The translations under genes and the position numbers were made by a program. The notes beneath the pieces are model-generated. The model made no database searches. It was not told the DNA's origin and was given only the letters and a program-made list of their open reading frames with translations. DNA of 59,007 nucleotides. It comes from Saccharospirillum sp. Lineage in GTDB: Bacteria; Pseudomonadota; Gammaproteobacteria; Pseudomonadales; Natronospirillaceae. Each line of letters begins with the position of its first letter. The first letter of the stretch is position 1. Location of the stretch: NCBI GenBank assembly GCA_022565595.1, contig JAIUML010000027.1:1-59007 (forward strand), read 5' to 3'. Of the stretch, positions 33,231 to 58,500 are shown piece after piece.

Positions 33231-33274
33231 GAGCCCTCACCTTTTGGTTTTATTATCAGGGTTAGTTCTTAACC

Positions 33275-33288: not shown

Positions 33289-33297
33289 GAAAATAAA

Positions 33298-33350
33298 ATT
33301 AGATATCTAATATTATTCTTAAGGTAGGACTTAAGCTGGGGGGTTGTCAA
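33298..33350 (-). promoter_or_regulatory. pht3 promoter with MarR-type palindrome
   Basis: The perfect 14-bp palindrome ATTAGATATCTAAT (33298-33311) is part of a 20-bp element that matches the one before pht2 (23171-23190) at 16-17 of 20 positions. Upstream, CTTAAG occurs twice (33318-33323 and 33330-33335). AAGTCC, 17 bp from TAGATA, parallels the pht2 arrangement; a TTGACA at 33345-33350 (minus strand) is an alternative -35. This is the likely start of the pht3-pht5-TRAP operon. Confidence 0.6.
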
Positions 33351-33758: not shown

Positions 33759-35681
33759 CTATCGTCGCATCATGAAGCGGTTAAAGAATGCAGCGAGCTC
33801 GGCATGCGCTTCTAGAGGCAAAACATGCGCAATGTACTGGTCTGGCCGAACAACAACCAGACACCCCTTCTCACGGTCAATACCGCGAAGGTCATAAATA
33901 TCCTGCTCGGATCTTGAGTCAGGGCAAAAGACCTTCTCGTAGTCGATCAGGCCGAACTGCCCTTTTCGCGGTCGCAATAATGACGGCAAAGTCTCGTCCG
34001 TCACTTCAAGATGGGATTGCTGGAAGATCACGCGACAGTCAAACAAGGCGTCGATGTCTGCACCTTCAGGGTTGTATCGGCTTAGAGGAGACTCAGTGTC
34101 ATTTGCCAAAAAGTCACACAGCTTATGAATTGTCGAAGTGTTATCCGCGCTTGAGTCGTCCGCCCCAGCAAAGGCATACAGACGCCACCGACCATCGGCC
34201 CGGGCCACATGCCCGAGATGCAACACCTTGCCATCCGCCTGTCGTATGACGGGAGCCGAGTGGAAGCGCATTCCGACGATAAACCCCTTGGCCAGGTTCT
34301 GCCAGGTGTCTTCGCCTTGAATCATGGATGGTCGATAGTGGGTTTCCGTGCCCGCTGTAAAACGGCCTTTCTTGATGAAATACTGCTGAAAGGCCTTTGG
34401 ATCCACGCCTTCGCCACTCGCGCTGTCTTTTGGCCGATCGCTGAACATCGCCGCCCATTCCCGATCGAAGTCGATCAAATCCTGTGCCACCACTTGCCGT
34501 TCTTCCGAGTAGGTATGCAGCAACTCCGGGACTGCTTGCCCGCGCAGAACTGCAGCCAATTTCCACCCCAGATTGAACGTATCCTGCATGGAAAAATTCA
34601 TGCCTTGACCGGCCTTTGGACTGTGGGTATGACAAGCATCACCGGCAATAAATACTGAAGGTAGTTGCCGCTCCACATCGGACTCAATGACATTATCGTA
34701 CCTGTCGCAAATACGTTGGCCGATCTCATAGACAGACCACCAGGCAACATCTTTTACCTCCAGGGTGAAGGGCCTCATAATGCGCTTGGCGGCTGCGATC
34801 ACGTGCTCGACAGTGATGTTTTTACTGGCTACCCGTTCGTTTTCGGCCAACTTGTCCATTTCCACATAGAAACGCACCAGGTAGCCGCCCTCTCTCGGGA
34901 TAATCAGTACATTGCCTTCACTCGAAGACTGAATGGCCGATTTCCTGCGAATGTCTGGAAAGTCCGTAATCGCCAGAACATCCATAACACCCCAGGCCTG
35001 GTTAGCAGAATCGCCACGCAATTCTCGGCCTATGGATTTACGCACCACACTGCGCGCACCATCACAACCCACCACATAGCGTGCTACGACCTGCTCAGTC
35101 TGGCCAGCGTGGGCCGGGTCGGTGCGCTCAATCGTCACCAGGGACGGGCCTCCGTCCTTGCCAGTAGTGACTGAGGCCACTCTGCGGGAATAATCCACTT
35201 CCATACGGGAGGGTGAATTGCGCATTTGCTCAAGGTAACGGTCGTGAACCCGGGCCTGGTTGAGGATGACATGTGGAAACTCGGACAGCCCGTCTTCGGT
35301 ATCCTGAACGATGCCATTACGCTCTATATTTTCCGGCTTTTTGGCGTCCGGTTTCCAAAAGGCGACTTCATTGACCCAATAGGCTTCTTGCATAATCTGC
35401 TCAGCGAACCCAAAGGCTTCAAACATTTCCATAGTACGACAGGCTACACCATCTGCTTGACCCAATTCCAAAGGGCCAGATCTCGCTTCAATCAGCCGCG
35501 TCGAAATATCAGGAAACGCAGCCAACTGCGCTGCTAGCGTCAATCCGGCCGGTCCACTGCCGACAATGAGCACATCGACGGACTCAGGCAGTTTGTCATT
35601 CTGAAAGGCGGCTTCTGCACCCGGCGCAGGTGCTTCCCTATGCGGATCGCCCGCACGGAAACCTTCAAGATAAAATTGCAT
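33759..35681 (-). CDS. mobA: 3-hydroxybenzoate 4-monooxygenase (FAD-dependent, phenol hydroxylase family)
   Basis: The 640-residue flavoprotein hydroxylase has the dinucleotide motif VDVLIVGSGPAGLTLAAQLA, the GADGVACRTMEMFEAFGF-like segment, YVVGCDGARSVVRKSIG and FIAGDACHTHSPKAGQGMNFSMQDTFNLGWKLA. A C-terminal thioredoxin-like domain follows (GCLVVVRPDQYIAHVLPLEAHAELAAFF). Length and motifs match MobA of Comamonas testosteroni (about 640 residues), which makes protocatechuate from 3-hydroxybenzoate. GGAGGAG upstream of ATG 35681 selects this start over a longer frame to 35732. A MarR gene is divergent, as in mobA-mobR. Related phenol 2-monooxygenases are the main alternative. Confidence 0.8.
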   Translation of the reverse strand: MQFYLEGFRAGDPHREAPAPGAEAAFQNDKLPESVDVLIVGSGPAGLTLAAQLAAFPDISTRLIEARSGPLELGQADGVACRTMEMFEAFGFAEQIMQEAYWVNEVAFWKPDAKKPENIERNGIVQDTEDGLSEFPHVILNQARVHDRYLEQMRNSPSRMEVDYSRRVASVTTGKDGGPSLVTIERTDPAHAGQTEQVVARYVVGCDGARSVVRKSIGRELRGDSANQAWGVMDVLAITDFPDIRRKSAIQSSSEGNVLIIPREGGYLVRFYVEMDKLAENERVASKNITVEHVIAAAKRIMRPFTLEVKDVAWWSVYEIGQRICDRYDNVIESDVERQLPSVFIAGDACHTHSPKAGQGMNFSMQDTFNLGWKLAAVLRGQAVPELLHTYSEERQVVAQDLIDFDREWAAMFSDRPKDSASGEGVDPKAFQQYFIKKGRFTAGTETHYRPSMIQGEDTWQNLAKGFIVGMRFHSAPVIRQADGKVLHLGHVARADGRWRLYAFAGADDSSADNTSTIHKLCDFLANDTESPLSRYNPEGADIDALFDCRVIFQQSHLEVTDETLPSLLRPRKGQFGLIDYEKVFCPDSRSEQDIYDLRGIDREKGCLVVVRPDQYIAHVLPLEAHAELAAFFNRFMMRR

Positions 35682-35743
35682 AAGATAGTCTCCTCCAGCT
35701 AGCCGACCAACACGGCTTTTATTTTTTTGCAATCACATAATTA

Positions 35744-35757
35744 TTCAGTATGCTGAA
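35744..35757. promoter_or_regulatory. Palindromic operator between mobA and mobR
   Basis: TTCAG-TATG-CTGAA is a palindrome with a 4-bp centre in the 121-bp spacer of the divergent mobA and MarR genes. It differs by one base (TATG versus TATA) from the TCAG-TATA-CTG element found before the picolinate fusion gene. It is the probable binding site of the adjacent MarR protein. Confidence 0.6.
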
Positions 35758-35802
35758 TATTTATATTAACGTCAATTATTGTATGGGAAGAGAAGCACCG
35801 TT

Positions 35803-36267
35803 ATGTTCAACCTCGAAAGCATGCCTGGCCACCTGATTCGGCGATATCACCAAGCCGCAGTTGCCATATTTCACCATGAAACCGCTCAACTTGATTACGA
35901 CATAACCCCTGTACAATTTGCAGCTATGGAGCAATTACAGGCATCACCCGGTATTGACCAGATCACACTAGCCGGTTTAATTGCCTATGACCGCACCACT
36001 ATTACCGGAGTTGTTGATCGGCTGGTTCAGAAGGGGTGGCTAAAGCGACGCATCAGTAGCCAGGACCGGCGAGCTCGAATTCTGCACCTGACTGATGAAG
36101 GCGAGCACGCCCTGTCCGTCATTCGTCCAGCAGTAGAAAAGGCGCAACAGGTGATGCTGCGCGGGCTAAGTAGAGAGGACGCAGAGTCTTTTCTGCGCTT
36201 ATTGAAAGCCGCTACCGAGAGCGTTAATGAGCTGAGCCGAGCGCCACTAAGACTGGATACTCAGTGA
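35803..36267 (+). CDS. mobR: MarR-family regulator, MobR-like
   Basis: The 154-residue protein has the MarR fold: YDITPVQFAAMEQLQASPGIDQITLAGLIAYDRTTITGVVDRLVQKGWLKRRISSQDRRARILHLTDEGE. It is divergent from the 3-hydroxybenzoate hydroxylase gene, as MobR is in Comamonas, where it represses mobA until 3-hydroxybenzoate binds. It is clearly related to the other MarR protein at 43397-43906 (shared FLIRR/LIRRYHQ, LTPVQ and GIDQITL-like motifs). ATG 35803 is chosen for its GGAAGAG site; a TTG at 35779 is possible. Confidence 0.75.
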   Translation: MFNLESMPGHLIRRYHQAAVAIFHHETAQLDYDITPVQFAAMEQLQASPGIDQITLAGLIAYDRTTITGVVDRLVQKGWLKRRISSQDRRARILHLTDEGEHALSVIRPAVEKAQQVMLRGLSREDAESFLRLLKAATESVNELSRAPLRLDTQ

Positions 36268-37762: not shown

Positions 37763-38578
37763 ATGAATCAGACCTTCTTGTACGGCGGCCATGTGCATGC
37801 CAACGGAATACGTCAGCACTACCTGCGTTACTGTGCCTCCGATGATCAGTTGCCTGTGTTGATAGTGGTTCCTGGAATTACAAGCCCAGCCATTACCTGG
37901 GAGTTCGTTGCCGAGCGACTTGGACACGTCTTTGATACCTATGTACTGGATGTCCGTGGCCGGGGCCTGTCAGAAACTGGTGATCATCTGGATTACGGGA
38001 TTGATACCTGTGCCGATGACATTATTGCTTTTGCCGAGGCTCTCGACCTGAACAAGTACTCAATCCTCGGGCACTCCATGGGTGCCCGTTTCGCCATTCG
38101 AGCTGCAACCCGCAACGCCGATGGAATCGATAAGCTTGTGCTGGTTGACCCGCCGGTGTCCGGGCCAGGACGTCGCGAATACCCCAGCAAACTTCCCTGG
38201 TATATTGACTCAATGAAGGCCTGTCGACATGGCGCAGACATAGAAACCATGCGCACCTTCTGTCCAACCTGGACCGACGAGCAACTGCGGTTGCGCGCCG
38301 AGTGGCTACACACCTGTAACGAAAAAGCTGTGATCGATACCTTCAATGGTTTTCACGAAGATGACATCCATCAGAACCTGCCATCGCTCAAGGTCCCTGC
38401 TCTGCTGATGGTTGCCGGAAAAGGTGGCGTGATACAGGAAAAGGACGAGAAGGAGATCAGCACTCTCATGCCTTCCATTCAGATTGCACACGTACCGGAT
38501 GCCGGGCACATGATTCCCTGGGATGACTACGAAGGTTTCTTCGCAGCCCTGGGGGATTTCCTGGGCAAGAAAGCTTGA
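37763..38578 (+). CDS. nicD: N-formylmaleamate deformylase
   Basis: The 271-residue alpha/beta hydrolase matches NicD of Pseudomonas putida along its length, including ANGIRQHYLRY, VPGITSPAITW, DTYVLDVRGRGLS, DPPVSGPGRREYPSKLPWY and DAGHMIPWDD. The triad Ser105 (GHSMG), Asp129 and His249 corresponds, with a constant offset of 4, to Ser101, Asp125 and His245 of that enzyme. It hydrolyses N-formylmaleamate, the ring-opened product of 2,5-dihydroxypyridine, to maleamate and formate. PicE is the picolinate-pathway name for the same activity. It leads the operon nicD-maiA-nicF-picC-MFS. Confidence 0.95.
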   Translation: MNQTFLYGGHVHANGIRQHYLRYCASDDQLPVLIVVPGITSPAITWEFVAERLGHVFDTYVLDVRGRGLSETGDHLDYGIDTCADDIIAFAEALDLNKYSILGHSMGARFAIRAATRNADGIDKLVLVDPPVSGPGRREYPSKLPWYIDSMKACRHGADIETMRTFCPTWTDEQLRLRAEWLHTCNEKAVIDTFNGFHEDDIHQNLPSLKVPALLMVAGKGGVIQEKDEKEISTLMPSIQIAHVPDAGHMIPWDDYEGFFAALGDFLGKKA

Positions 38579-38645
38579 TCAGAACTTGCGGCGCTGTGAC
38601 CCAGTCTCTGCAAACAGTCGATAGACATCCCTGGAGAACCAAACC

Positions 38646-39428
38646 ATGAAGAATCCGTATCGTATCGGACAAATTGTGCCCAGCTCGAACACCACCATGG
38701 AAACAGAGATCCCCAGAATGCTGCGCTGGCGTGAGGAGCTGCATCCTGAGCGTTTTACTTTCCACTCCAGCCGCATGCGCATGCATAAGGTCACCAAGGA
38801 AGAGTTGATCGCCATGAATCGTCAGGGACTGCGCTGTGCAGCTGAGTTGGCAGATGCGCGGGTCGACGTGATGAGTACAGCATGCCTGGTTGCCATCATG
38901 GCAATGGGCCCCGGTTACCACCGCGAAGTTGAACGCGAGTTGACAGAAGTGGCTCGGGAGAATGGTTGCCAGGCACCAGTCATGACCTCAGCCGGCGCCT
39001 TGATCGCTGGCCTGAATCTGATGGGCGCCAAGCGCATTGCCCTATTGGCTCCCTATATGCGCCCACTGACCGATACCGTCATCGAGTACATCGAGAGCGA
39101 AGGCATTGAGGTGGTGGATTCCCGCTGCTTCGAAATACCCGACAACCTCGAAGTTGGGAGGCGCGACCCCATGCAGCTGGTTGAGGACGTCAAAAAGCTG
39201 AATACCTCCAACGTTGATGCCGTTGTGTTATCGGCGTGTGTCCAAATGCCCTCCCTACCGGCCATTCAGAAGGTGGAAGATGCTCTGGGCATTCCGGTCA
39301 CTTCAACCGCCATCTGTACCACCCGACTGATGTTGGACAACCTGGGGTTGAAGCCCGAAGTTCCCCATGCAGGTGCTCTGCTCAGCGGGCGTTACCCTGC
39401 TGCCACCCCGAAATCAGCCGGAGGCTGA
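38646..39428 (+). CDS. maiA: Maleate cis-trans isomerase
   Basis: The 260-residue protein belongs to the Asp/Glu racemase superfamily and starts YRIGQIVPSSNTTMETEIPRM, the typical maleate isomerase beginning. The two catalytic Cys are in DVMSTACLVAIM (Cys80) and AVVLSACVQMPSLP (Cys198). These correspond to Cys82 and Cys200 of P. putida maleate isomerase with a constant offset of 2. It turns maleate into fumarate, the last step (NicE/PicG) of the lower pathway. GGAGA precedes the ATG, and nicF starts 4 bp after the stop. Confidence 0.92.
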   Translation: MKNPYRIGQIVPSSNTTMETEIPRMLRWREELHPERFTFHSSRMRMHKVTKEELIAMNRQGLRCAAELADARVDVMSTACLVAIMAMGPGYHREVERELTEVARENGCQAPVMTSAGALIAGLNLMGAKRIALLAPYMRPLTDTVIEYIESEGIEVVDSRCFEIPDNLEVGRRDPMQLVEDVKKLNTSNVDAVVLSACVQMPSLPAIQKVEDALGIPVTSTAICTTRLMLDNLGLKPEVPHAGALLSGRYPAATPKSAGG

Positions 39429-39432
39429 GGAC

Positions 39433-40083
39433 ATGACCGAAAACGCGCAGAAAAACTATCAAGGTGTTTGGGATGGGCGCATCGGTTTTGGCCGCAAAAC
39501 GGCTCTGCTGGTGATTGATTTCATGCAGGGCTACACCACCGAAGGCGCACCCTTGTATGCGCCCGGTGTAGTGGAAGCCATTCCTCATGCGGCGGAAGTT
39601 CTGAACGCCGCCCGCCTGGCGGGTATACCTCTGGTCCACACGAATATTCGCTATCAACCTGATACGTTTCTGGATGGTGGTGTATGGCTAGTGAAGTCCC
39701 CTGTCATGAAAGACATGGTGGCTGGCAATCCGCATGCGGAGTTCTGCCCTGAGACTGCTCCGGCAAAGGGTGAACTGGTGATCAGCAAGCAGTACCCCAG
39801 TTCCTTCTTCGGCACTTCCCTGGCCAGCACCCTGCATGCGCAGGGGATCGATACCATTGTGCTGATCGGCTGTTCCACCAGCGGTTGCATACGCGCAACA
39901 GCCGTCGACGGCCTGCAACATGGTTTTCGCGTACTCGTCATCCGTGAGGGGGTTGGGGACCGTCATCCTGATCCACATGAAGCAAACCTTTTTGATATAG
40001 ACAGCAAATATGGTGACGTCATCTCCAAGACGGACTTTTTCGCCCACCTGAGCGACGGTTCATCGGTCGCGCCCGGTATTTGA
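39433..40083 (+). CDS. nicF: Maleamate amidohydrolase
   Basis: The 216-residue cysteine hydrolase is of the isochorismatase-like family. Catalytic residues are Asp29 in LLVIDFMQG, Lys119 in LVISKQYPSSF and the nucleophile Cys152 in IGCSTSGCIRATAVD. The tail GDRHPDPHEANLFDIDSKYGDV is typical of NicF. It converts maleamate to maleate and ammonia. ATG 39433 is chosen, since earlier in-frame starts lie inside the isomerase gene; GAGG precedes it. Confidence 0.92.
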   Translation: MTENAQKNYQGVWDGRIGFGRKTALLVIDFMQGYTTEGAPLYAPGVVEAIPHAAEVLNAARLAGIPLVHTNIRYQPDTFLDGGVWLVKSPVMKDMVAGNPHAEFCPETAPAKGELVISKQYPSSFFGTSLASTLHAQGIDTIVLIGCSTSGCIRATAVDGLQHGFRVLVIREGVGDRHPDPHEANLFDIDSKYGDVISKTDFFAHLSDGSSVAPGI

Positions 40084-40120: not shown

Positions 40121-41083
40121 ATGAACCGAGTCAGGAAAATAGCACTTGAAGAACACTTCATGGCGCCCGGATTTGAAAGCTACTCCGAAGTGTTTCTGAA
40201 GAACATACCTGCCAATGTCCGGCAAGAACTCAGCAGCAAGCTGAATGATTTTGATGATCTCCGACTGGCAGACATGGACCAGGCTGGCGTTGAAATGGTG
40301 CTGTTGTCCCAATCCGGCCCCGGTGTTCAGGCAGAACCTGACACGGCACAGGCCATTCGCAAGGCTCGGGAAAATAACGACTTTTTGGCTGAGCGCATTG
40401 CCCGGAACCCAAGCCGATATGCTGGCTTTGCCACATTGCCCATGCAGGATCCAAAGGCTGCAGCGATTGAGCTGGAAAGAGCGGTCAAACAGTTGGGCTT
40501 TAAAGGGTCAATGGTCAATGGTCACACCCTCGGAGTCTATTATGACGATCCGGCTTATGATCCGTTCTGGGAAAAGATGCAGGAATTGGACGTGCCGATG
40601 TATTTGCATCCCGTCAACTTTCATGATGTGCCGCACAACATGAAAGGGCATCCGGTACTGGCCGGAGCCGTCTGGGGCTGGGGTGTTGAAACCGGAACCC
40701 ATGCGCTGCGCCTATTGTTCGGCGGTGTGTTTGACCGGTTCCCCAACCTGAAACTGATTCTTGGCCACATGGGTGAGGGCTTGCCCTTCATGCGCTGGCG
40801 GTTCGATAGCCGTTTCGCTGTCTATTCTCAGGGCATCAACCTTCAGCGCCAACCCTCGGCTTATTTCGGTTCCAATATCCTGATTACCACTTCGGGCGTG
40901 TGCTCTTCACCCACACTGCTGGGGGCAATTGGCGAGATGGGGCCGGAAGGAGTTATGTTTTCCATTGACTACCCCTATGAATCCACCCAACTTGCTGTGG
41001 ATTTCATCGAGCAGGCACCGATGGATGAGCGCACCAGGGCACTGATTTGTTACGACAACGCAAAACGCATTTTCAAGCTCTGA
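40121..41083 (+). CDS. picC: Amidohydrolase-2 family non-oxidative decarboxylase, probable 3,6-dihydroxypicolinate decarboxylase
   Basis: The 320-residue protein belongs to the ACMSD/gamma-resorcylate decarboxylase group. It has KIALEEHFMAPG with the metal-binding E-x-H variant, MYLHPVNFHDVP with His, LILGHMGEGLPFMRWRFDSR, and MFSIDYPYEST with the metal Asp. In Alcaligenes faecalis JQ135 picolinate catabolism, PicC of this family converts 3,6-dihydroxypicolinate to 2,5-dihydroxypyridine. Its place between nicF and a transporter gene, and the absence of NicC in the window, favour picolinate over nicotinate as the growth substrate. Other hydroxybenzoate decarboxylases are related, so specificity is inferred. 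Confidence 0.8.
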   Translation: MNRVRKIALEEHFMAPGFESYSEVFLKNIPANVRQELSSKLNDFDDLRLADMDQAGVEMVLLSQSGPGVQAEPDTAQAIRKARENNDFLAERIARNPSRYAGFATLPMQDPKAAAIELERAVKQLGFKGSMVNGHTLGVYYDDPAYDPFWEKMQELDVPMYLHPVNFHDVPHNMKGHPVLAGAVWGWGVETGTHALRLLFGGVFDRFPNLKLILGHMGEGLPFMRWRFDSRFAVYSQGINLQRQPSAYFGSNILITTSGVCSSPTLLGAIGEMGPEGVMFSIDYPYESTQLAVDFIEQAPMDERTRALICYDNAKRIFKL

Positions 41084-43396: not shown

Positions 43397-43906
43397 TTAA
43401 CTGGGTCGAAAAACAGCTCGTCCGAGATGATTGTTGGCGTGAACCAGTTTCGCCAGCAGCAGGCTAAAAGCCTTTCGCTCCTCTGGCGTGAGCGGCTCAA
43501 GCAAAAGCTCCTGTGCCCGGAGCATGCAGTCATACATACTCTGCGTCACCTGCTCACCCTTTTCGGTCAGACGACTTAGCCTGACACGCTTGTCATTGGG
43601 GCTCGGACTTCGTTTGACCAGCCCCCAGCCTTCCAGGCGCCGGAGAATATCTGCCGTATTGCTCCGATCTATCCCAACTTCCTGCGACAATGTTATCTGA
43701 TCCAGGTCGGGCTGCTCTGCGAGCTTGGTTAATACGCCATACTGTACCGGTGTCAGGTCATACCCTTCGGACTCTCTCAGAAAGAGCGCATAGTGTATCT
43801 GGTTCAATCGTCGAATTAAGAAGCCCGCACGCGACCACAATGGAATTTTACTGCCTGATGCCTTGTCATCCGGCATATCCAGATATATTTCAAGTCGAGA
43901 TAGCAT
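43397..43906 (-). CDS. picR: MarR-family regulator of the pyridine-carboxylate cluster (PicR/NicR-like)
   Basis: The 169-residue protein has the MarR winged helix: GYDLTPVQYGVLTKLAEQPDLDQITLSQEVGIDRSNTADILRRLEGWGLVKRSPSPNDKRVRLSRLTEKGE. It sits inside the cluster between xdhC and the oxygenase genes. It is the obvious reader of the TCAG-TATA-CTGA type palindromes before nicD, the fusion oxygenase and nicX. Both NicR and PicR are MarR repressors of such clusters. It is paralogous to the MobR-like protein at 35803-36267. AAAGG precedes ATG 43906; an ATG 30 bp later is possible. Confidence 0.75.
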   Translation of the reverse strand: MLSRLEIYLDMPDDKASGSKIPLWSRAGFLIRRLNQIHYALFLRESEGYDLTPVQYGVLTKLAEQPDLDQITLSQEVGIDRSNTADILRRLEGWGLVKRSPSPNDKRVRLSRLTEKGEQVTQSMYDCMLRAQELLLEPLTPEERKAFSLLLAKLVHANNHLGRAVFRPS

Positions 43907-44120: not shown

Positions 44121-44636
44121 TCAGACCGGATATACTAGAGAATTCTCCAGCAACAGATTGTCATAGATGCATTGCCTTTCCTTGAGCTTCAGGACACCCT
44201 CCTCATGAACAAATCGATCCACATAGCGCCCAATCTGGTGCATTGTCGCATTGGGCTTATCCATCAAAACTTGGGTCAGAAGATAATTGGATCCAGAATG
44301 AATCTCATCGCCTTCTTTGTAATGCACAAAGGTGTTGGTAACGAAATGACGCAAATATCGAGGTGCGAACATCGAAGTCTCGAGGATTGCTGTCGCTCGA
44401 TCCTCAAGCATTGGCCGCCCTTCGCAATACACTAACCCTACCGGCAGTCCGGCATCAAAATTCTCTCTCGATAATATTATATAACGACAATCTTGAGTAA
44501 AAAAATTCGCCCAGTCATACAAACGCCCTTCATCGAGAGCAAGACAATACTCGACATTGAACTTCTCGATGGTACGCAACAAGGTATCTTCCGCAATACC
44601 CGCTTCGCCTTGATTCGCTTCATTTTCTTTCAGCAT
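44121..44636 (-). CDS. Ring-hydroxylating dioxygenase beta subunit
   Basis: The 171-residue protein of the NTF2-like beta-subunit family shows NVEYCLALDEGRLYDWANFFTQDCRYIILSRENFDAGLPVGLVYCEG and RHFVTNTFVHYKEGDEIHSGSNYLLTQ. It pairs with the alpha subunit encoded just upstream to make an alpha3beta3 oxygenase. AAGGAGG sits 7-8 bp before ATG 44636, so this start is better than the ATG at 44654, which overlaps the alpha stop. In the proposed pathway the enzyme hydroxylates 6-hydroxypicolinate at C3. Confidence 0.85.
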   Translation of the reverse strand: MLKENEANQGEAGIAEDTLLRTIEKFNVEYCLALDEGRLYDWANFFTQDCRYIILSRENFDAGLPVGLVYCEGRPMLEDRATAILETSMFAPRYLRHFVTNTFVHYKEGDEIHSGSNYLLTQVLMDKPNATMHQIGRYVDRFVHEEGVLKLKERQCIYDNLLLENSLVYPV

Positions 44637-44650
44637 TGCTGTTTCCTCCT

Positions 44651-47518
44651 TCAACCGATACCCAGCTCTTTGCGCCAGTATTTGTACATGGCTCGAATCG
44701 CTGCTTCGGAAATCAATGTATCTGCAGTACCGGCCTCCGTATTCGGGTCCATCTCTATCAGATGCTCGCCAGCCAAAGAGTGCTTCATGCCGTCCTGAAC
44801 AAATTTCATCGCCTCATTGTCTTCCATCCCCAGGAAGCCCGCCGGGCCCATGAGGTTGCCTTGACGCAGGCGATGGCGCTGCTGTTCGTCTGTGTCGCCC
44901 TCGAAACCAAACATCGTCCAGTTCATGACAAATTCGTTTGGTCCATTCGGCACGATCTGGCGAACCCCCAAAGTATTCATTTCTCGCTGGACGATCAAAT
45001 TGGGCCAGAGCGTCATCATGGTCACGCTCCACCGCGAGTCAAACTCGTCTTCAAAGTCCAACATTTCAGGTGCCTTCAGCTTTAATTCCGCATTGTAGGC
45101 GCGCATTTCCTTGCTATCTTCTTCGGACACCTTGCCTGCGTCGCTTTTGGCAGAGGCCATAACACCGTGCCGTCCTGTCTCGTCGCAAATCATCTCGGCC
45201 TCGTTTCCGGCAACCAACAAACCGAAGCTCACCAGAAAGGTATGCAGAAGCGTGGCATGATAAGGGTCCTTGAGATTCTCGTGATAAAGCTTCCAGTTGC
45301 CCGGCAGAGTATTCCGGTAGTAGCCCAGCACTTTGAGCTTGCGCCCATTAAAGGTAGCATCGAATTCTTCCGTGATGCGAGGTCCGAGGTAATCTTCCAG
45401 CGGCTCCATATTCAAATCGAAGGAAGCGAAGATGACCCCACCTCGGGTGGTCACTGCCAGTTTCTGTGGGCTATGATCACTGGCGATAAAATTTGATGGA
45501 AGCCCGCCTTTACCTCCGACGCCGCGCCGGAACGGAATGCCGGACAAGTTACCCTTGAGATCGTAAGTCCACTGGTGATAGGGGCATACAAATTCCTTGT
45601 TGTTACCACGCAATTCACGACAGAACTCCGCGGCCCGGTGAGAGCAACGATTGAGAAAGACGTTGATTTCTCCATCCTCGTCGCGACTTACGACAACGGG
45701 AGTAGGGCCCACATTGCTCCTGATAAAATCCCCCGCCTCTGGGATTTCCGCCTCCAGCCCGACATAGTTCCAGGTTGAACCATGGAATATCTTGTCCACT
45801 TCAAGCTGGTAGATCGCTGGATCGGTATAGACCCAGTCCGGAATGCGACGCAGGCCCTTCTCGGGCCAGACATAATATTGTGCCGGGTTATTCATTAACT
45901 TTCTCCTGTTCTCCGGCGACACCCGCGTGTCACCTGCGCTATCCGAGGCTGTCTTCAAAAAACCAAGCAGTGTCGATACCTCAAGTCGCTGAGATACCCA
46001 TATCCGTGCTTTGCGAATAGCAGCCGTATTATCAAAGGCAACAACGCCACTCAGGCGCTCCCCATCATGCAAGTAAATTACTTCACCACCGTCCTGACTG
46101 GCAGGCTGGACGTAGAATTCGTCAGAGGGCGTTGGCAGCCCCAGCATTTGAATGTTGTGGCCGAATTGATCAGACCAGAACCAGGGCACCGTATCGTAGG
46201 CTGTTTCGATTCCCGCCATGGTTTTGGCCGCAGACAACGCCTGCTCTTGTGCGTTGTGCCAGGATTCCAGGCGCAGCTGGGCATTGTTTGAACCGGGCCA
46301 GGTGGCTACATCGCCAGCGGCAAAAACATTATTTGCGGACGTACGACCAAAACGATCAACTAAAATGCCATTCCTGATGGTGATTCCGGCGGCTTCGGCC
46401 AGCTCGCAATTAGGGACCACGCCAATCCCGACAACCACAGTATCGGCCAGCAAGGGTTCGCTGTCCGCCAGGTTCAGCTGTACAACAGAACCGTGCGGCT
46501 CTATTGCGCTGACTCTGGTGCCGGTGCGTACCTCGACACCACTGGCCTCTGCAATTTCATGCAGATACCGTGCAGCGCGCGGATGCAGAGCTCGCGCGCA
46601 GAGCCTGCCCTCGGCTTCAAGCAGCGTCACTTCGCAGCCCAGTTTGCGCGCGGCAGATGCGACCTCCATGCCGATAAAGCCGCCCCCGATAATGGCCACC
46701 TGTCCTCCGCGCTTCAGTGCGCGCTTCAGCGAAATTGCGTCCTCACCGGTTCGCAGTTCGTGTACCTGTGGCAAATCCGCACCGGGTATCGGTAAGGGCC
46801 GCGGACGAGCACCGGTAGCAATCAGTACGCTGTCATACTCGACTGTGCTTTGGTCGGAAAGGGTGATCGTTCTGGTGCCGGTATTCAGTTGCACTGCGGA
46901 CAAGCCGCAGCGCAAATCAATCTTCAAAGTCTCAACGGCCTGGCGATCCAACACCGTCGCTTCCTGGGTACTAGCAGTACCCAGCAGCACATCCTTGGAC
47001 AGGGGAGGTCGTTCATAAGGCAGCTCGAGTTCATCGGCAATCAGCACGATCTCTCCGGTGAAGTTGGCGTCACGCAGTCCGCGCGCAGCACAGGCTGCCG
47101 CCTGCCCCCCACCCAGAATCACAAAACGGCGCCCGTCGCTCTTTTCCAAATCAGCGGAGGGTTTGTCCTCCAGGGCAACCGATTGAGTGTCTGCCAATTC
47201 CGCTTGTCGATCCAGATCGACGTAAAGTTGCCCGTCCTCGACCTTGGTGGCATAGGTGGGGATGTCCTCAGTGACCGGTGATCCCATTGCCTTGCCGGTT
47301 CGAATGTCAAAACGTCCCTGATGCAAGGGACATTCGACACAGCCATCTTCGACAAAGCCGTCATTCAGCAATGCGAACTGATGCGTGCAGACATTCCCAG
47401 TGGCAAAGTATTCATCTTGCACACGGAACACTGCCACGCGCTCGCCACTGATACTCACGGCCATTACACCATGGTCTGCAGGCAGTTCAGTCGCGCCCTC
47501 TACAAGTGTCCAACCCAT
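44651..47518 (-). CDS. Three-domain fusion: Rieske ferredoxin, ferredoxin reductase and Rieske oxygenase alpha subunit
   Basis: One 955-residue frame holds a complete electron chain. Residues 1-104 are a Rieske ferredoxin (Cys44, His46, Cys63, His66). Residues about 131-525 are an FAD/NADH ferredoxin reductase (GGGQAA at 136-141 for FAD, IIGGGFIG near 276-283 for NADH, AGDVA near 401). Residues 542-955 are an oxygenase alpha subunit, with Cys625/His627 and Cys645/His648 in the Rieske centre. The NLKDPYHATLLH stretch carries Asp751, His754 and His759 of the iron site. It resembles the salicylate/anthranilate hydroxylase group. In Alcaligenes pic clusters 6-hydroxypicolinate 3-hydroxylation needs four separate components (PicB1-B4); here three are joined and the beta subunit is separate. 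A vestigial start site lies at residue 542. Confidence 0.88.
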   Translation of the reverse strand: MGWTLVEGATELPADHGVMAVSISGERVAVFRVQDEYFATGNVCTHQFALLNDGFVEDGCVECPLHQGRFDIRTGKAMGSPVTEDIPTYATKVEDGQLYVDLDRQAELADTQSVALEDKPSADLEKSDGRRFVILGGGQAAACAARGLRDANFTGEIVLIADELELPYERPPLSKDVLLGTASTQEATVLDRQAVETLKIDLRCGLSAVQLNTGTRTITLSDQSTVEYDSVLIATGARPRPLPIPGADLPQVHELRTGEDAISLKRALKRGGQVAIIGGGFIGMEVASAARKLGCEVTLLEAEGRLCARALHPRAARYLHEIAEASGVEVRTGTRVSAIEPHGSVVQLNLADSEPLLADTVVVGIGVVPNCELAEAAGITIRNGILVDRFGRTSANNVFAAGDVATWPGSNNAQLRLESWHNAQEQALSAAKTMAGIETAYDTVPWFWSDQFGHNIQMLGLPTPSDEFYVQPASQDGGEVIYLHDGERLSGVVAFDNTAAIRKARIWVSQRLEVSTLLGFLKTASDSAGDTRVSPENRRKLMNNPAQYYVWPEKGLRRIPDWVYTDPAIYQLEVDKIFHGSTWNYVGLEAEIPEAGDFIRSNVGPTPVVVSRDEDGEINVFLNRCSHRAAEFCRELRGNNKEFVCPYHQWTYDLKGNLSGIPFRRGVGGKGGLPSNFIASDHSPQKLAVTTRGGVIFASFDLNMEPLEDYLGPRITEEFDATFNGRKLKVLGYYRNTLPGNWKLYHENLKDPYHATLLHTFLVSFGLLVAGNEAEMICDETGRHGVMASAKSDAGKVSEEDSKEMRAYNAELKLKAPEMLDFEDEFDSRWSVTMMTLWPNLIVQREMNTLGVRQIVPNGPNEFVMNWTMFGFEGDTDEQQRHRLRQGNLMGPAGFLGMEDNEAMKFVQDGMKHSLAGEHLIEMDPNTEAGTADTLISEAAIRAMYKYWRKELGIG
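45893..45907 (-). promoter_or_regulatory. Internal Shine-Dalgarno and ATG at the reductase-oxygenase junction
   Basis: On the minus strand AGGAG (45907-45903) is followed by AAAGTTA and then ATG (45895-45893), in frame at Met542 of the fusion. The next residues, MNNPAQYYVWPEKGLRRIPD, are a normal oxygenase alpha-subunit N-terminus. The signal is as good as those of separate genes in the cluster. It suggests a former gene start and possible independent translation of a 414-residue alpha subunit. Confidence 0.7.
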
Positions 47519-47655: not shown

Positions 47656-48825
47656 TCATTTCCGCCCGATTAGTGCCCGAAACCAGCCTTTCGCAACCGT
47701 CAGAAGCAACTGGAATACGCTGAGATTGGGCGTGGATCCAGCGGATGCTTCGCCACCGGACAGAACCTTCTGCACATTGTCCGCAAACATGCGCGCAATG
47801 GCGCCAACAAAACTCTTGACCAGTCCGCCTCGGCTGAATTGCGACAGTGCACCGGTAATGGTGTAGGACGCCAGTATGTTTATCCGACATTGATTCTCGT
47901 TGTCACCGGGCACGACACTGAACTCCATAACTCCGGTCGCATCGGATCCACTGCGCACATCTCGGCCTTTCCCTTCAAAACGTCCGGTGCGGTTGCTGTC
48001 ATCAAAAGTAAAGCGCCCGCTACCCTGAAAGCGAACACGAATGGCGCCGAGGGAGATCTCCATCTCGATTGCCAGGTCTTCACCGTCTACGCTGAGAATA
48101 CTGGCACCCGGCACGCAGGGTACTACCTTCTCGACATCGCGCAGGAATTGCCAAACTTCTTCGACCGGTTTAGCTACGACCACCTGCTCTCTCAGGGTCT
48201 GATCACCATCCGAGTCTTCCCCACCTGCGCTGGTAGCGACTTGATCCACCTGTCCGCTGGTGCGCTTGAAGGTAGGCAAGGGTTGAGACGTCATCTGCTC
48301 TAATGCCGGAGCTACACTATTTCCAGCGCTGTCATCAAGCAGCTCTGAACGCCGCTCGAAAACCGACATGACCGCACCGACAATGCCCACATATCCGGTA
48401 CAGCGACATAAATTGCCACCGAGCGCCACTCTGATCGCCTTTTCATCAAGATGCTCATGGCGTATCACCATATCGCGGCATGCGATCAACATGCCGGGCG
48501 TGCAAAAGCCGCACTGCAGACCATGATGGTCCATGAAAGCCTCTCGCAAGGCCGCCATAACAGGATCATCATCGTATCCCTCTATGGTTCTGATCCGACT
48601 TCCCGTGCACGCCTGGGCCAGGGTGATGCAGGATCTTACCATTTGTCCGTCTACTTCCACCGAGCAGGCACCGCAAACACCATGCTCACAACCCAGGTGT
48701 GTCCCAGTGAGATTCAAGTCATCACGCAGAAAATCTGCCAGGCTGGTACGCGGCTCCGGGAATCCCTGGACCTGTTCACCGTTCACTTCAAAATGAGCCA
48801 CCTTAGGGGCGATCGTTTCAGTCAT
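47656..48825 (-). CDS. Molybdenum hydroxylase [2Fe-2S] subunit fused to a CoxG-type domain
   Basis: The 389-residue protein joins two units. Residues 1 to about 165 are the small subunit of a xanthine-oxidase-family hydroxylase, with the plant-type cluster GCEHGVCGAC plus SC and the second cluster QCGFCTPGM and LCRCTGY. Residues about 205-350 are an SRPBCC/CoxG domain (REQVVVAKPVEEVWQFLRDVEKVVPCVPGA), ending with an amphipathic tail FQLLLTVAKGWFRALI. CoxG helps carbon monoxide dehydrogenase maturation and membrane attachment, so the fusion may tether the enzyme near the membrane. The linker is about 40 residues. Its start overlaps the stop of the FAD-subunit gene. Confidence 0.88.
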   Translation of the reverse strand: MTETIAPKVAHFEVNGEQVQGFPEPRTSLADFLRDDLNLTGTHLGCEHGVCGACSVEVDGQMVRSCITLAQACTGSRIRTIEGYDDDPVMAALREAFMDHHGLQCGFCTPGMLIACRDMVIRHEHLDEKAIRVALGGNLCRCTGYVGIVGAVMSVFERRSELLDDSAGNSVAPALEQMTSQPLPTFKRTSGQVDQVATSAGGEDSDGDQTLREQVVVAKPVEEVWQFLRDVEKVVPCVPGASILSVDGEDLAIEMEISLGAIRVRFQGSGRFTFDDSNRTGRFEGKGRDVRSGSDATGVMEFSVVPGDNENQCRINILASYTITGALSQFSRGGLVKSFVGAIARMFADNVQKVLSGGEASAGSTPNLSVFQLLLTVAKGWFRALIGRK

Positions 48826-49652
48826 TGCTTTTCTCCGATCTGTTCCAGGGCACGTCGGACCACCACTGTGAAAAGCTGGCGTTTTGCATCCGAATAGCCT
48901 GCTAGCATTTCATTGACCGCCTCGCCCGTGCAGGCAATGGCTTCATCAACACCCTTCTCCGCAAGGGCGTTGGCAACCTGTTCAAGCGCAACAGGGGGAA
49001 TATCAAGGGCACCGAGCACGACACGACAATAGCCGCGTTCCGGATCGGCAACCACGATTCCAGTAGCCTCGGAAAAGCCTGACGATTTTCGGCTGTACCG
49101 ATAGTACCCCCAGCGTGCCGCCTTACTCAGTCGCGGCACACTGATGCCGCACAGTATTTCCCCTGCACCCAACCTGGTCATGAAGGCCGCCGACATGAAC
49201 TCGGTTGACGACACCTCTCGCAGTCCATCCGCGCCCAGCAACCGATAGGTAGCATCAAGCCCCACCATGACGCCGATCCAGTCTGCAGCTGGGTCGGCAT
49301 GCGCGATGCTTCCGCCAAGGGTGCCCCTGTTGCGGATGGCACGGTAGGCAAGGCGCGACGCAACTGTTCGCAACAGGCCATTCGTCGCATCGGGCACCAG
49401 GCCGTCCTCAAATTCGGCATGCCGCTGCGTGCTGCCGTAGACGATGGAGTCGGATCTTTGTTCCGTGAGACGGAGGTCCTCAGCCCGATGCAGATCAACC
49501 AGCACTGAAGGACGCGCCAGACGCAAATTCAGCATCGGCCCGAGAGACTGACCACCGGCAATACACTTGGCCTCATCACCGTGCTGCCTCAACAACTGTA
49601 CGGCTTCTGCACTGTCTCTGGCCGCTACATAGTCAAACCGCACGGGCTTCAT
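48822..49652 (-). CDS. Molybdenum hydroxylase FAD-binding subunit
   Basis: The 276-residue medium subunit has KPVRFDYVAARDSAEAVQLL, the FAD loop AGGQSLGPMLNLRLARPSVLVDL and the second FAD motif RNRGTLGGSIAHADPAADW. A C-terminal CO-dehydrogenase flavoprotein domain follows (KKSS-like RKSSGFSEATGIV). It moves electrons from the iron-sulfur clusters onward. GAGGAG precedes ATG 49652, which overlaps the end of the large-subunit gene by 20 bp. Confidence 0.9.
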   Translation of the reverse strand: MKPVRFDYVAARDSAEAVQLLRQHGDEAKCIAGGQSLGPMLNLRLARPSVLVDLHRAEDLRLTEQRSDSIVYGSTQRHAEFEDGLVPDATNGLLRTVASRLAYRAIRNRGTLGGSIAHADPAADWIGVMVGLDATYRLLGADGLREVSSTEFMSAAFMTRLGAGEILCGISVPRLSKAARWGYYRYSRKSSGFSEATGIVVADPERGYCRVVLGALDIPPVALEQVANALAEKGVDEAIACTGEAVNEMLAGYSDAKRQLFTVVVRRALEQIGEKQ

Positions 49653-52023
49653 TCTGCTGCTCCTCGCTGCTGTGCTGTGATGTCAATGTTTTCTGTGTTT
49701 TTCTTCTTTCGATGGCTTGCAGAACATGATCAGCCGTGGCCGGTATGCGGCTGATTTCAACACCCATTGCACTCAGAGCATCATTGATGGCATTGATAAC
49801 CGCCCCGCCGGGGGCGATGGCACCACCTTCGCCCACGCCCTTGATGCCATGCGCCGTGTGGGGTGATAGTGTTTCCATATGCTGAACACGTATGTGCGGT
49901 ACTTCCGCCGCTCCGGGCAGATGATAATCGGCCAGAGTGGAATTCAACGGCTGTCCCCTCTCGTCGTAAATCACTTCCTCGTAAAGCGCTGACCCGATGC
50001 CCTGTGCCGTACCGCCAATGGCCTGCCCGTCAACAATCATCGGATTGACGATTCGACCACAGTCCTCAGTGATGGCGTAGTCCAGCAGCTCTGTCTTGCC
50101 GGTTTGGGGATCGACAGACACCACGACTGCATGGGTGGCATAAGAAAACACGCCCGTATCCACCCGCGGTTTGTAGAAGGCGGTGTATTCTAGTCCGGTA
50201 TTACCATCCCCGGCCGGCAACTGATCAGGACGCCGGTACCAACTGATAGCTAGTTCGTTGAAGCCCAGTGTCCCATTGGGGCCGTGGATCTCTCCATCCT
50301 CCAAGCGAATTTCGGAGGCATTGCATTCCAAACGATGCGCAGCCAGGGTGCGTATACGCTCGGCCAGCCCTTCTGCCGCACGGGACACTGCCCCCCCAGA
50401 CATGACGATCCCACGAGAAGCATAGGCTCCAGTCGAAAAAGGTGTGGTTGTGGTATCGCCCAGACTGACCCTTATTCGGTCAGTCGGAATACTCAGAATC
50501 TCAGACGCTATCTGCGCCAGCGTTGTCTGGATGCCCTGGCCAATGTTGGCAATACCGGCAGCAACCTCGACTCCGCCATCCGGAGTAAGCTTGATCCGAG
50601 CCTCGTCATAACCGGGAACCAGTGGCAAGCCCCATTGTGCAAATACCTGCGTACCGTGAGCCGACTGCTCAGTGAAAGTGGCAAAACCGACGCCTATCAA
50701 GCGGCCGTCCGGCTCAGGCGTCTTCTGACGCTGGCGAACCTCATCAAACCGAATCGCGTCCTTGGCCAGACGAAGAGATTCGGGATAATTACCGCTGTCA
50801 TACTGCTTGTTTGTTACATTCTGATAAGGCATGGACGCAGCAGGAACAAGATTCTCCGCACGAACTTCCCAGGCCTCTCGGCCCACCGCTCTGGCGATCG
50901 CATCAATGGTTAGCTCCATGGCGAAGCAAACACCCGGGCGAGCCACACCGCGATAGGGGGTGAACGGAGGCTTGTTTGACGCCGTGGCCATCACATGGCA
51001 ACGGTAATGATCAAATGCATAGGGACCGGGAAGATTGCCTCCGGCCTGCGCCGCTTCAAGCCCAGCAGTAAAGGGCCAGACAGAGTAGGCACCGACGTTA
51101 ACAGTGACTTCCGCGTCCAGCCCCAGCAAACGACCTCGCTTGTCTGCATAAGCCGTTACTGAATAATGATGTTCCCGGGTATTGGCACCTGCGGTCAGGT
51201 GCTCCCGGCGATCCTCGAGCCAACGAAAGGCACCCCGACGCTCATAGGCAAGCCAGGCCACCAGAATTTCTTCAGGCTGCAATACACACTTGTAGCCAAA
51301 TCCACCACCCACCTCTGGGGTGATGACTCGAACAAGGTCAGGAGACAATCCAAGACAGTCGGCCAGACCACTGCGTATAAGGTGAGGAACCTGAGTCGAC
51401 GTATTGACGATTAACTGCTCTGCCTGACTGTCCCACCAGGCAACCACACCCTTTCCTTCCATGGGGTTCATAACCTGCCGACCGGTATCGTACTCCCGTT
51501 TGACGACCACATCAGCCCGATCGCGAATATCTGGCATATCCTTACCGATGGTGAAGTCCAAAAACATGTTGTCCGGCCAATGCTCATGCAGACGATCGCC
51601 TTTGTTATCCTTGGCTTGATCCGGCGTGATCACCGGCGACAGTGCTTCGAGGTCGACCTCAACCAGTTCGACCAGATCTTCTGCCTCAGCACGGTTCCGT
51701 GCAATGCACATCACAATCGGCTCACCGGCGAAACGAACCTTTTCTTTTGCCAAGGGCCATTGTTCTGAGTTGCGAAAACTCGGCAGTGTCGATTCCGCCC
51801 TGATCGGCCTGACGCCATTCAGATCCTCAGCACAAATGACCTGATTCTCATATCCTGCAGGCTTCTTGACACCCTTGATTAACGCATGCGCCAACGGGCT
51901 TCGCAGGAAGGCAACATCACGCATACCGGCGACTTTAATATCGCCTATGTAACGGCTCTTTCCATGAACCAAACGAGGATCTTCCAAACGCCTGACCCGC
52001 TGACCAATACCTGTTTTGTTCAT
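49633..52023 (-). CDS. Molybdopterin-binding large subunit of a pyridine-carboxylate (probably picolinate) dehydrogenase
   Basis: The 796-residue protein has the xanthine dehydrogenase aldehyde-oxidase fold in its first third (RRLEDPRLVHGKSRYIGDI). Mo-binding motifs are PEVGGGFGYK, TPYRGVARPGVCFAMEL, IGQGIQTTLAQIASE, SGGAVSRAAEGL and GVGEGGAIAPGGAVINAI with the catalytic Glu. It would hydroxylate picolinate at C6 with water, the first step of the pathway. ATG 52023 is chosen because AGGAG lies 7 bp before it; the frame is open to 52050. Nicotinate or another heterocycle is an alternative substrate that sequence alone cannot exclude. Confidence 0.85.
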   Translation of the reverse strand: MNKTGIGQRVRRLEDPRLVHGKSRYIGDIKVAGMRDVAFLRSPLAHALIKGVKKPAGYENQVICAEDLNGVRPIRAESTLPSFRNSEQWPLAKEKVRFAGEPIVMCIARNRAEAEDLVELVEVDLEALSPVITPDQAKDNKGDRLHEHWPDNMFLDFTIGKDMPDIRDRADVVVKREYDTGRQVMNPMEGKGVVAWWDSQAEQLIVNTSTQVPHLIRSGLADCLGLSPDLVRVITPEVGGGFGYKCVLQPEEILVAWLAYERRGAFRWLEDRREHLTAGANTREHHYSVTAYADKRGRLLGLDAEVTVNVGAYSVWPFTAGLEAAQAGGNLPGPYAFDHYRCHVMATASNKPPFTPYRGVARPGVCFAMELTIDAIARAVGREAWEVRAENLVPAASMPYQNVTNKQYDSGNYPESLRLAKDAIRFDEVRQRQKTPEPDGRLIGVGFATFTEQSAHGTQVFAQWGLPLVPGYDEARIKLTPDGGVEVAAGIANIGQGIQTTLAQIASEILSIPTDRIRVSLGDTTTTPFSTGAYASRGIVMSGGAVSRAAEGLAERIRTLAAHRLECNASEIRLEDGEIHGPNGTLGFNELAISWYRRPDQLPAGDGNTGLEYTAFYKPRVDTGVFSYATHAVVVSVDPQTGKTELLDYAITEDCGRIVNPMIVDGQAIGGTAQGIGSALYEEVIYDERGQPLNSTLADYHLPGAAEVPHIRVQHMETLSPHTAHGIKGVGEGGAIAPGGAVINAINDALSAMGVEISRIPATADHVLQAIERRKTQKTLTSQHSSEEQQNEARAV

Positions 52024-52110
52024 GTAGTCTCCTGTAGACAGAGCTGGCAAAACTGAAAATGCAGCAACAGGACGTTGCTACATTTTTTCAAGCTAACCCA
52101 TAGCCGTCGT

Positions 52111-57411: not shown

Positions 57412-58443
57412 TTACTTTGCCGGTATGATGATTTCCTTTTTCACTATGTCTCCATCTACGACGATAGGCTCATCATCCAGAAACAGTGAACAATTTCTCA
57501 TGGGGATGTCCAGGTGGCAGGCCGTGTCATTGGTTCCGCCCAACTCGCTATTTGGACCCGTTGAAAACATGACGTTGCCATAGAAGCTCCGGGGCTCCAT
57601 GCCCATACCGCCAGGGAACTCGCCTGGAACCATCCGGTGCCATTTGGCATCTCTGTTCATGCCCCACCCCACATGGCTCATTCCAAAGCCGCGCTTGTCA
57701 TCAAAGCTGGCCATGTACGACTTGACGAGATCAGCTTCCAGTCCGCCCCGAATATCCGTAATCCAGCCCTTTTCGATGGTGTAGGTAATGGGCTCGCGAA
57801 CATAGATGTTCTGCGGCAGCAGAATATCGCCTGGTCCTACCACGATGGTGCCATCGACTCCGTCATCGTCACCGCCTGTAAAAACAAAGCCTGATGGCCA
57901 GTGATCCCAGCGCCCTGGTTCATCGGTGCAGGCGTATTCAGTGATCGTCGGATAAGTGTTCATCTTGTAGACGACGTCGGTGCCATTCGGCGAAGTAATC
58001 CTCATCTCTTTTGCTCTGGCAAGAATCTCCCCGGCAGCCTCTACCTTCTCTCGCAGCAGCGGGTTGGGCATCATTCTCGCTAACAACTCCGGTGGCTCTA
58101 CAACGGTAAGAACACGAGTTCCAGCCGCCTGTATGGCCATTTGTTCTGGAGAGAACAAAAGAAACATGCAGTCAATCAGCATGTCGCACTGCTTAAGCGC
58201 CTCTACCGCCTCAGGCATGGAAGCCAACCCATTAACACCCACAGCCCAGCCTCCAGATGGCGGAGGAGCAGGCAGGCGCATATGATACATGTTGGCCTTG
58301 AGTTGCTGTCCGGCGGCCAGAAAGGCATCAGCGTAATCCAGTCTTTCATTGCCTTGCGTGAGTACTATCAGGCGCTCTCCTTCACGCACCCCGGACATTT
58401 TCAACTGCTGCAGGCAGATCTCAATAAAGCTCGCGTGATCCAT
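57412..58443 (-). CDS. nicX: 2,5-dihydroxypyridine 5,6-dioxygenase
   Basis: The 343-residue protein resembles NicX of Pseudomonas putida, an Fe(II) extradiol-type dioxygenase with a leucyl-aminopeptidase-like fold. The three iron ligands are visible as His257 (GMSHVGWGMN), His310 and Asp312 (DTACHLDIPM). All three sit at a constant offset of 8 from His265, His318 and Asp320 of the P. putida enzyme. It opens the pyridine ring to N-formylmaleamate, the substrate of NicD. PicD is the picolinate-pathway name. ATG 58443 is chosen for its AGGAG site; the frame is open to 58488. It stands alone with its own promoter, apart from the other lower-pathway genes. Confidence 0.93.
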   Translation of the reverse strand: MDHASFIEICLQQLKMSGVREGERLIVLTQGNERLDYADAFLAAGQQLKANMYHMRLPAPPPSGGWAVGVNGLASMPEAVEALKQCDMLIDCMFLLFSPEQMAIQAAGTRVLTVVEPPELLARMMPNPLLREKVEAAGEILARAKEMRITSPNGTDVVYKMNTYPTITEYACTDEPGRWDHWPSGFVFTGGDDDGVDGTIVVGPGDILLPQNIYVREPITYTIEKGWITDIRGGLEADLVKSYMASFDDKRGFGMSHVGWGMNRDAKWHRMVPGEFPGGMGMEPRSFYGNVMFSTGPNSELGGTNDTACHLDIPMRNCSLFLDDEPIVVDGDIVKKEIIIPAK

Positions 58444-58464
58444 GACTGTTCTCCTGTAAAATAG

Positions 58465-58476
58465 GAAGTATACTTC
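58465..58476. promoter_or_regulatory. Palindromic operator before nicX
   Basis: GAAGTATACTTC is a perfect 12-bp palindrome, 22 bp upstream of the nicX ATG. It shares the AGTATACT core with the elements at 37600 and 47568, and GAAG-TATA matches the half-site before nicD. It is probably bound by the MarR protein at 43397-43906. Confidence 0.6.
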
Positions 58477-58500
58477 TCTTTTTAACAATAATAGCCGTAA

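Follow-up and report, generated by a model that had tools for sequence, protein, structure and literature searches.

We analysed a 59,007-nucleotide stretch of Saccharospirillum sp. DNA (contig JAIUML010000027.1 of assembly GCA_022565595.1), hereafter the window, which carries on its minus strand a gene encoding the ferredoxin, the reductase and the oxygenase alpha subunit of a Rieske oxygenase as one protein. The window positions 44651-47518 form a single open frame of 955 codons that runs from ATG to TGA without an internal stop, and its start ATG stands after GGAGGTGA. An initial annotation of this DNA had described the 955-residue frame, leaving its strand unstated, and had placed a beta subunit in the adjacent gene, where a Ring_hydroxyl_B match indeed lies at 44121-44654. 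Absent from that annotation were the features of the junction between reductase and alpha subunit, namely an intact AGGAG with an ATG and a run of six T's. The fused gene and its beta partner comprise the following features:

44651..47518 (stop included), minus strand: fused gene for ferredoxin, reductase and oxygenase alpha subunit, 955 amino acids, from the open frame and Pfam matches
47219..47512, minus strand: Rieske ferredoxin domain, residues 3-100, Pfam Rieske_2, with Cys44, His46, Cys63 and His66 invariant
47132..47203, minus strand: linker 1, residues 106-129, variable, of low confidence at 109-126, without an internal ATG start
45974..47128, minus strand: GR-type NADH:ferredoxin reductase domain, residues 131-515, from Pyr_redox_2, Reductase_C and the nearest solved sequences and folds
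45896..45973, minus strand: linker 2, residues 516-541, variable, of low confidence at 523-542, from alignment identity and the AlphaFold2 model
45957..45962, minus strand: six-T run at the natural end of the reductase
45903..45907, minus strand: internal Shine-Dalgarno sequence AGGAG, 7 nucleotides ahead of the internal ATG
45893..45895, minus strand: internal in-frame ATG (Met542), the proposed start of a free alpha subunit
44654..45895, minus strand: oxygenase alpha module, residues 542-955, Pfam Rieske and Ring_hydroxyl_A, with the Rieske centre at 625-648 and the iron site at D751/H754/H759
44121..44636, minus strand: oxygenase beta subunit, Ring_hydroxyl_B, listed as a frame from TTG at 44654, with a likely ATG start at 44636 after AGGAGG

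One frame thus holds every redox site from NADH to the oxygenase iron, with two variable linkers between the modules. Along the 955-residue protein, the Pfam matches are ordered Rieske_2 (3-100), Pyr_redox_2 (131-427), Reductase_C (446-515), Rieske (582-664) and Ring_hydroxyl_A (732-950). The ferredoxin, reductase and alpha residues that the initial annotation had named are all present and proved invariant across the 29 aligned fused proteins, of which the window's is one: Cys44/His46/Cys63/His66 of the ferredoxin, the two dinucleotide motifs around G136-G138 and G278-G283, the alpha Rieske ligands Cys625/His627/Cys645/His648, and the iron site D751-x2-H754-x4-H759. The CxH...CxxH motif, together with Ring_hydroxyl_A bearing D-x2-H-x4-H, marks an alpha/beta-type Rieske non-heme iron oxygenase, and a beta gene lies beside alpha in the window, with a beta match directly downstream in 29/29 fused loci. 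Three-component Rieske oxygenases are defined by reductase and ferredoxin on separate polypeptides, whereas here both are part of one frame. From these domains and residues, the fused protein would work like a three-component enzyme without the separate polypeptides, and the chain carries all redox modules that a self-sufficient oxygenase would need.

A first AlphaFold2 model built from 29 sequences was poor, with a predicted local distance difference test (pLDDT) score of 67.9 and a predicted template modelling (pTM) score of 0.49; we used a second and better model built from 60 sequences (mean pLDDT 80.5, pTM 0.51), in which the modules are joined via two low-confidence linkers. Stretches with pLDDT below 50 are residues 109-126 and 523-542, which correspond to the two linkers, and 910-925 and 927-936 in alpha. 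Foldseek returned matches to ferredoxin reductases and to terephthalate and salicylate oxygenases. TodA, BphA4 and putidaredoxin reductase are among the nearest solved sequences and folds for the reductase domain, and the closest solved sequence to the alpha module is the salicylate 5-hydroxylase 7c8z, an aromatic-acid monooxygenase. With a pTM of 0.51, the model does not predict the relative placement of the modules or the docking of the ferredoxin on alpha, a point that counts against the one-chain mechanism proposed below.

The fusion is not confined to the window. Our main scan of genome contigs returned at least 80 loci, and the figures from it are lower bounds. Among these loci, at least 28 further genomes contain the same stop-free ferredoxin-reductase-alpha frame, so the outcome that the initial annotation had said would overturn its reading, homologues always occurring as two proteins, was not what we found. 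Among the matches listed, fused carriers include Alloalcanivorax, Alcanivorax, Azospirillum, Oceanibaculum, Ferrovibrio, Bradyrhizobium, Rhodopseudomonas, Xanthobacter, Pseudolabrys, Enterovirga, Rhodovarius, a metagenome-assembled genome (MAG) titled Mesoflavibacter and less named MAGs. Other searches yielded 11 more non-identical fused copies, for a total of at least 40 (29 + 11). In these counts, L016-L018 have the same sequence as L026, L028 and L029 and were counted once; the fused loci L112, L116, L129, L130, L136 and L138 were kept out of the 11 because each shares a 250-residue stretch with earlier loci; and the 11 may include near-identical pairs, such as L137 beside L045. Apparent betaproteobacterial fusions in Caballeronia (L107) and Variovorax (L108) were joined by tblastn across stops between the modules; these are separate genes and were not counted.

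The six-T run at the end of the reductase offers a trivial explanation for the window's gene, in which a miscounted T joined two or three genes through an assembly or sequencing error: with five T's the sequence would read TTT TGA, and after a -1 shift the frame meets a TAG 15 nucleotides on, at the natural reductase end. However, the at least 28 other genomes hold the same three-module frame with different linkers, the junction stretches of all other fused members lack a six-T run (that of L036 has five), and seven fused copies (G1004, G1443, G1515, G1517, G1537, G1538 and G1646) sit on single-contig genomes. Such an error is already refuted for the fused family, and we regard it as exceedingly improbable. 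Slippage at T TTT TTG, which has the look of a slippery site, was dropped as a family mechanism on the same ground, as no other fused member carries the run.

In the window's own genome, no second match spans the modules and the next-best alpha match is a 469-residue frame; among 57 near relatives, the own genome included, there was no other module-spanning match with a search E value of 1e-60 or lower. Three others among 390 genomes of the order are fused, all of one genus (Alloalcanivorax, by sequence identity) and stop-free at 64-65% identity. None other of 369 genomes of the class passes a search E value of 1e-125, and two others are fused among 398 genomes of the phylum. For G1004, 18 genomes pass the cut and 6 are fused among 385 of its class, and 20 pass and 11 are fused among 295 of its family; these samples share a few genomes. 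Annotation can also hide a fused gene, for example on the Paracoccus seriniphilus plasmid NZ_CP067132.1 (L106:8806-11775), where the gene table, which describes itself as incomplete, lists the alpha part only, from the internal ATG onward, although no stop interrupts the frame across ferredoxin and reductase.

The window's reductase-alpha junction contains AGGAG, seven bases and an in-frame ATG (Met542), which resembles a translation start inside the fused gene. We scored in-frame ATG and GTG codons across the family by the pairing of their upstream bases with the 16S tail (E), and the start taken for each junction was the best-scoring ATG or GTG from 26 codons before to 6 codons after the aligned alpha start. 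At E <= -6 kcal/mol, one of four cuts reported, a junction start is present in 29/29 fused genes and is an ATG in 22, compared with 20% of control 33-codon windows elsewhere in the same genes (8.6% for ATG). The local mRNA is also open at this position, with a mean structure rank of 0.10 (0 being the least structured) versus 0.52 for linker 1 and 0.42 for the remainder of linker 2. A start with E <= -6 occurs in 156 of 738 control tiles, where its mean rank is 0.57. With a rank cut of 0.2, which was picked after the ranks were known and then held fixed for new copies, both low E and low structure are found at 27/29 junctions versus 9/738 control tiles. As a yardstick we took the beta starts of these loci, whose positions are approximate; they reach 22/29 for E and 14/29 jointly. 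Among the 11 further fused genes, scored with the cuts fixed, 10 pass for E and 10 jointly, the eleventh reaching -5.9.

An internal site of this kind could be a relic, no longer functional, of the ancestral alpha gene, with the full chain as the only product. Its position matches the start of stand-alone alpha genes, as expected from common descent alone; moreover, two of six distinct ferredoxin-alpha fusions lacking the reductase (L054 and L056, the others being L052, L053, L140 and L143) still reach E <= -6. However, linker 2 has diverged to a mean pairwise identity of 0.19 with 46% gaps, versus about 0.80 in alpha, yet a start with E <= -6 has been kept in all 29 genes and in 10 of the 11 new copies. 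The ferredoxin-alpha fusions, whose four tree-placed members nest within the fused clade, score 0/6 in the joint test, compared with 37/40 for fused genes (Fisher p about 9e-6); because rows share ancestry, this and the other p-values are uncorrected for kinship. When the seven upstream codons were resampled synonymously, the mean was -6.7 versus the observed -9.2 (18 representatives, not fully independent; Fisher p 0.0066), a modest signal that leaves the relic some ground, and much of the signal lies in the amino acids chosen, beyond codon choice alone. On balance, we consider a relic unlikely.

Another conceivable role of the Shine-Dalgarno-like stretch is to delay ribosomes between one module and the next and so aid folding, with no translation start involved. 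Pausing at such sequences has been proposed, and the stretch does sit at a domain boundary. In contrast, an in-frame ATG or GTG stands at start spacing behind the stretch in 29/29 genes; the other domain boundary, between ferredoxin and reductase, has such a site with an ATG in 0/29 (ATG or GTG, 14/29), and the junction site outscores the beta starts in the joint test. This role therefore seems quite improbable.

Several observations weigh against an active internal start. Many single linkers are non-significant in the synonymous-codon test. The window's own site has E -7.4 and a structure rank of 0.38, so that here the Shine-Dalgarno sequence and ATG are present without the low structure, and L030 has a rank of 0.47. 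Openness relative to same-base shuffles is limited (mean z +0.59; p 0.003 for 29 genes, p 0.09 for 18 representatives), and the low structure partly reflects base composition, with G+C of 0.58 at the start and 0.64 in the gene. Finally, the best start of L035 lies 23 codons upstream of the aligned alpha start, which also suits a relic. Across the family, however, a conserved start, a Shine-Dalgarno sequence and open mRNA occur together. We favour, with some reserve, a gene that yields two products by design, the full chain and a free alpha subunit, which would assemble into mixed alpha3beta3 hexamers in which one or a few full chains feed three active sites. The retention of a Shine-Dalgarno sequence and in-frame start in an otherwise unconserved reductase-alpha linker is new here.

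The genes surrounding the fusion bear on its substrate and include the following:

47656..48825, minus strand: molybdenum hydroxylase [2Fe-2S] subunit fused to a CoxG domain, PicA-like, by domain match
48822..49652, minus strand: molybdenum hydroxylase FAD subunit, PicA-like, by domain match
49633..52050, minus strand: molybdenum hydroxylase large subunit, PicA-like, by domain match
43397..43906, minus strand: MarR-like regulator (by eye), matched in many pic loci
40121..41083, plus strand: amidohydrolase (Amidohydro_2), PicC-like decarboxylase
37763..40083, plus strand: PicE-like hydrolase, PicG-like isomerase and PicF-like amidase, by homology and position, with all NCBIfam matches below cut-off
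57412..58488, minus strand: PicD-like 2,5-dihydroxypyridine dioxygenase, by homology and position in pic loci

Upstream of the fused gene, the three molybdenum-hydroxylase subunits (47656-52050) are followed by genes that look TRAP-transporter-like by eye, and an XdhC-type factor is also nearby. PicC-like copies are mostly 60-71% identical in the related loci that hold one. The accessible part of a paper on Alcaligenes faecalis JQ135 and Bordetella bronchiseptica RB50 describes PicA as forming 6-hydroxypicolinate and PicB, encoded by the four genes picB1B2B3B4, as converting it into 3,6-dihydroxypicolinate (PMC10142695), in agreement with the four components that the initial annotation gave for PicB of JQ135. 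Because its surroundings match this published picolinate (pic) pathway, the fused gene most likely encodes a fused PicB, a 6-hydroxypicolinate hydroxylase; it lies in a pic cluster, and three of the components form one frame instead of separate genes as in JQ135 and RB50.

Alternatively, the fused hydroxylase might act on another substrate of a related kind. The best NCBIfam match of the protein is the anthranilate dioxygenase AndAc, below cut-off (377 versus 750 bits), and five of the 28 fused relatives (L028, L034, L047, L050 and L051) showed no molybdenum-hydroxylase or PicC-type gene in the fetched stretch, some of these stretches being short. It also counts against a 6-hydroxypicolinate hydroxylase that orthology to the Alcaligenes PicB would follow from context. 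However, molybdenum-hydroxylase and/or PicC-type genes occur in the fetched locus of 23/28 fused relatives among the matches listed, and the molybdenum-hydroxylase and PicC-, PicE-, PicF-, PicG- and PicD-like genes around the fused gene, here and in many relatives, are the set described for Alcaligenes and Bordetella in the accessible text (PMC10142695). We therefore judge a different substrate rather improbable.

Two of the neighbouring genes deserve mention in their own right. The CoxG part was matched in 24 of the 29 loci, the window included, that match the molybdenum-hydroxylase small subunit. The PicD-like protein (57412-58488) had no Pfam or NCBIfam match; its best local match is 82% identical and lies in Bradyrhizobium acaciae (L057:2608-3777), with about 40-43% identity in other related loci. 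Elsewhere in the window, 157-593 is a partial, internally shortened copy, in pieces of 88-95% identity, of the gene at 3361-4365 (within the span 3361-4384), which reads by eye like a UbiA-type prenyltransferase. A second Rieske oxygenase, of the LigXa_C type, and a phenol 2-monooxygenase-like flavoprotein at 31923-36267, with an adjoining MarR-like gene (by eye), perhaps form a separate aromatic pathway.

In a maximum-likelihood tree of 61 alpha sequences, from which the short alpha matches L080, L083 and L085 were left out, all 29 fused rows fall in one 35-row clade with support 100/99. The other six rows of the clade, namely four fusions of ferredoxin to alpha that lack the reductase and two alphas that stand alone, are nested among the fused ones, and the fused label has to change at least five times on the tree; our reading, for which the tree is no proof, is that one fusion may have been followed by losses. 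Outside the clade, seven loci (L061-L066 and L068) from Variovorax, Comamonadaceae, Pseudomonas fluorescens and proteobacterial MAGs encode ferredoxin, reductase, alpha and beta in four separate genes that stand side by side in the order seen in the fused loci, so the fusion joined neighbouring genes. L079 has the four genes in a different order, and the remaining outside rows hold alpha, mostly with beta, the full set not being seen. The window and the Alcanivoracaceae are gammaproteobacterial rows within a mostly alphaproteobacterial clade, a placement that suggests transfer; the window-Alloalcanivorax branch is weak (85/52), and the window's terminal branch is among the long ones.

A second unusual architecture, in which the chain lacks a reductase and runs straight from ferredoxin into alpha, is seen in L052, L053, L054, L056 and L139-L143, of which L139, L141 and L142 duplicate L052, L053 and L054. 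A reductase match was not seen in the short fetched stretches of L052-L054 and L056. L144-L146, whose frames contain alpha only, were left out of the count of ferredoxin-alpha fusions.

Taken together, we think it likely that the window encodes a natural one-chain PicB with an electron path from NADH to iron and an internal start that adds free alpha. In this enzyme, NADH would reduce the FAD of the middle reductase domain, which would pass electrons to the Rieske cluster of the N-terminal ferredoxin, and the linkers would let this tethered domain reach the alpha Rieske centre. From there, electrons may cross to a neighbouring alpha of the alpha/beta hexamer and reach its mononuclear iron, as the available sections of an August 2025 review describe for other Rieske oxygenases (PMC12445004), and 6-hydroxypicolinate would become 3,6-dihydroxypicolinate. 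The retained internal ribosome-binding site would let the gene also yield free alpha, leaving some subunits without a reductase, and hexamers would probably mix full chains with free alpha. The substrate, the electron path and the hexamer are all inferred. The initial annotation proposed a self-sufficient hydroxylase with a beta partner; the conserved fusion, the pic context and the cofactor residues support this proposal in part and make a self-contained chain from NADH to the oxygenase its natural reading, but with the internal start kept across the fused family, the 955-residue chain is probably not the sole product. The gene is thus probably a two-product gene for a Rieske hydroxylase of new architecture.

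If this is true, it would be a self-sufficient Rieske oxygenase whose stoichiometry is fixed at translation. A reductase-oxygenase fusion may already have been described among phthalate dioxygenases. The titles and abstract starts found among open PubMed Central papers, a scope outside which subscription papers and preprints lie, describe no naturally occurring self-sufficient Rieske oxygenase. The initial annotation knew of no such arrangement among characterised systems. According to the accessible part of the August 2025 review, self-sufficient systems had yet to be identified among Rieske oxygenases, and fused systems still faced the problem of lower activity and coupling (PMC12445004). 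The family described here would be a natural and widely kept solution to fusing such systems, with linkers tested by evolution. If the internal start works, the natural enzymes may carry fewer redox modules than oxygenase subunits, which might hint at why one-to-one artificial fusions do poorly.

Among known systems, PicB of A. faecalis JQ135 and B. bronchiseptica RB50 shares with the window the PicA genes, a PicC-type decarboxylase and the PicD-G lower pathway, as far as the accessible text describes them (PMC10142695), but is made from four genes, whereas three of the parts form one chain here. TodA, BphA4 and putidaredoxin reductase have the fold of the middle domain but are free-standing proteins. 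The salicylate 5-hydroxylase NagGH (7c8z) and AndAc-type alphas are the closest solved sequence and among the closest folds of the window's alpha, but differ in substrate and use a separate ferredoxin and reductase. The ferredoxin-alpha fusions L052, L053, L054 and L056 belong to the same alpha clade as the fused rows, but these and L140 and L143 have no reductase module in the chain, and their internal start is weak or structured. Self-sufficient P450s of the CYP116B type likewise carry their redox partners on one polypeptide, according to the accessible portion of a paper on them (PMC7260179), but are built on an unrelated oxygenase, whereas the window's enzyme is of the Rieske/non-heme iron type with a separate beta subunit.

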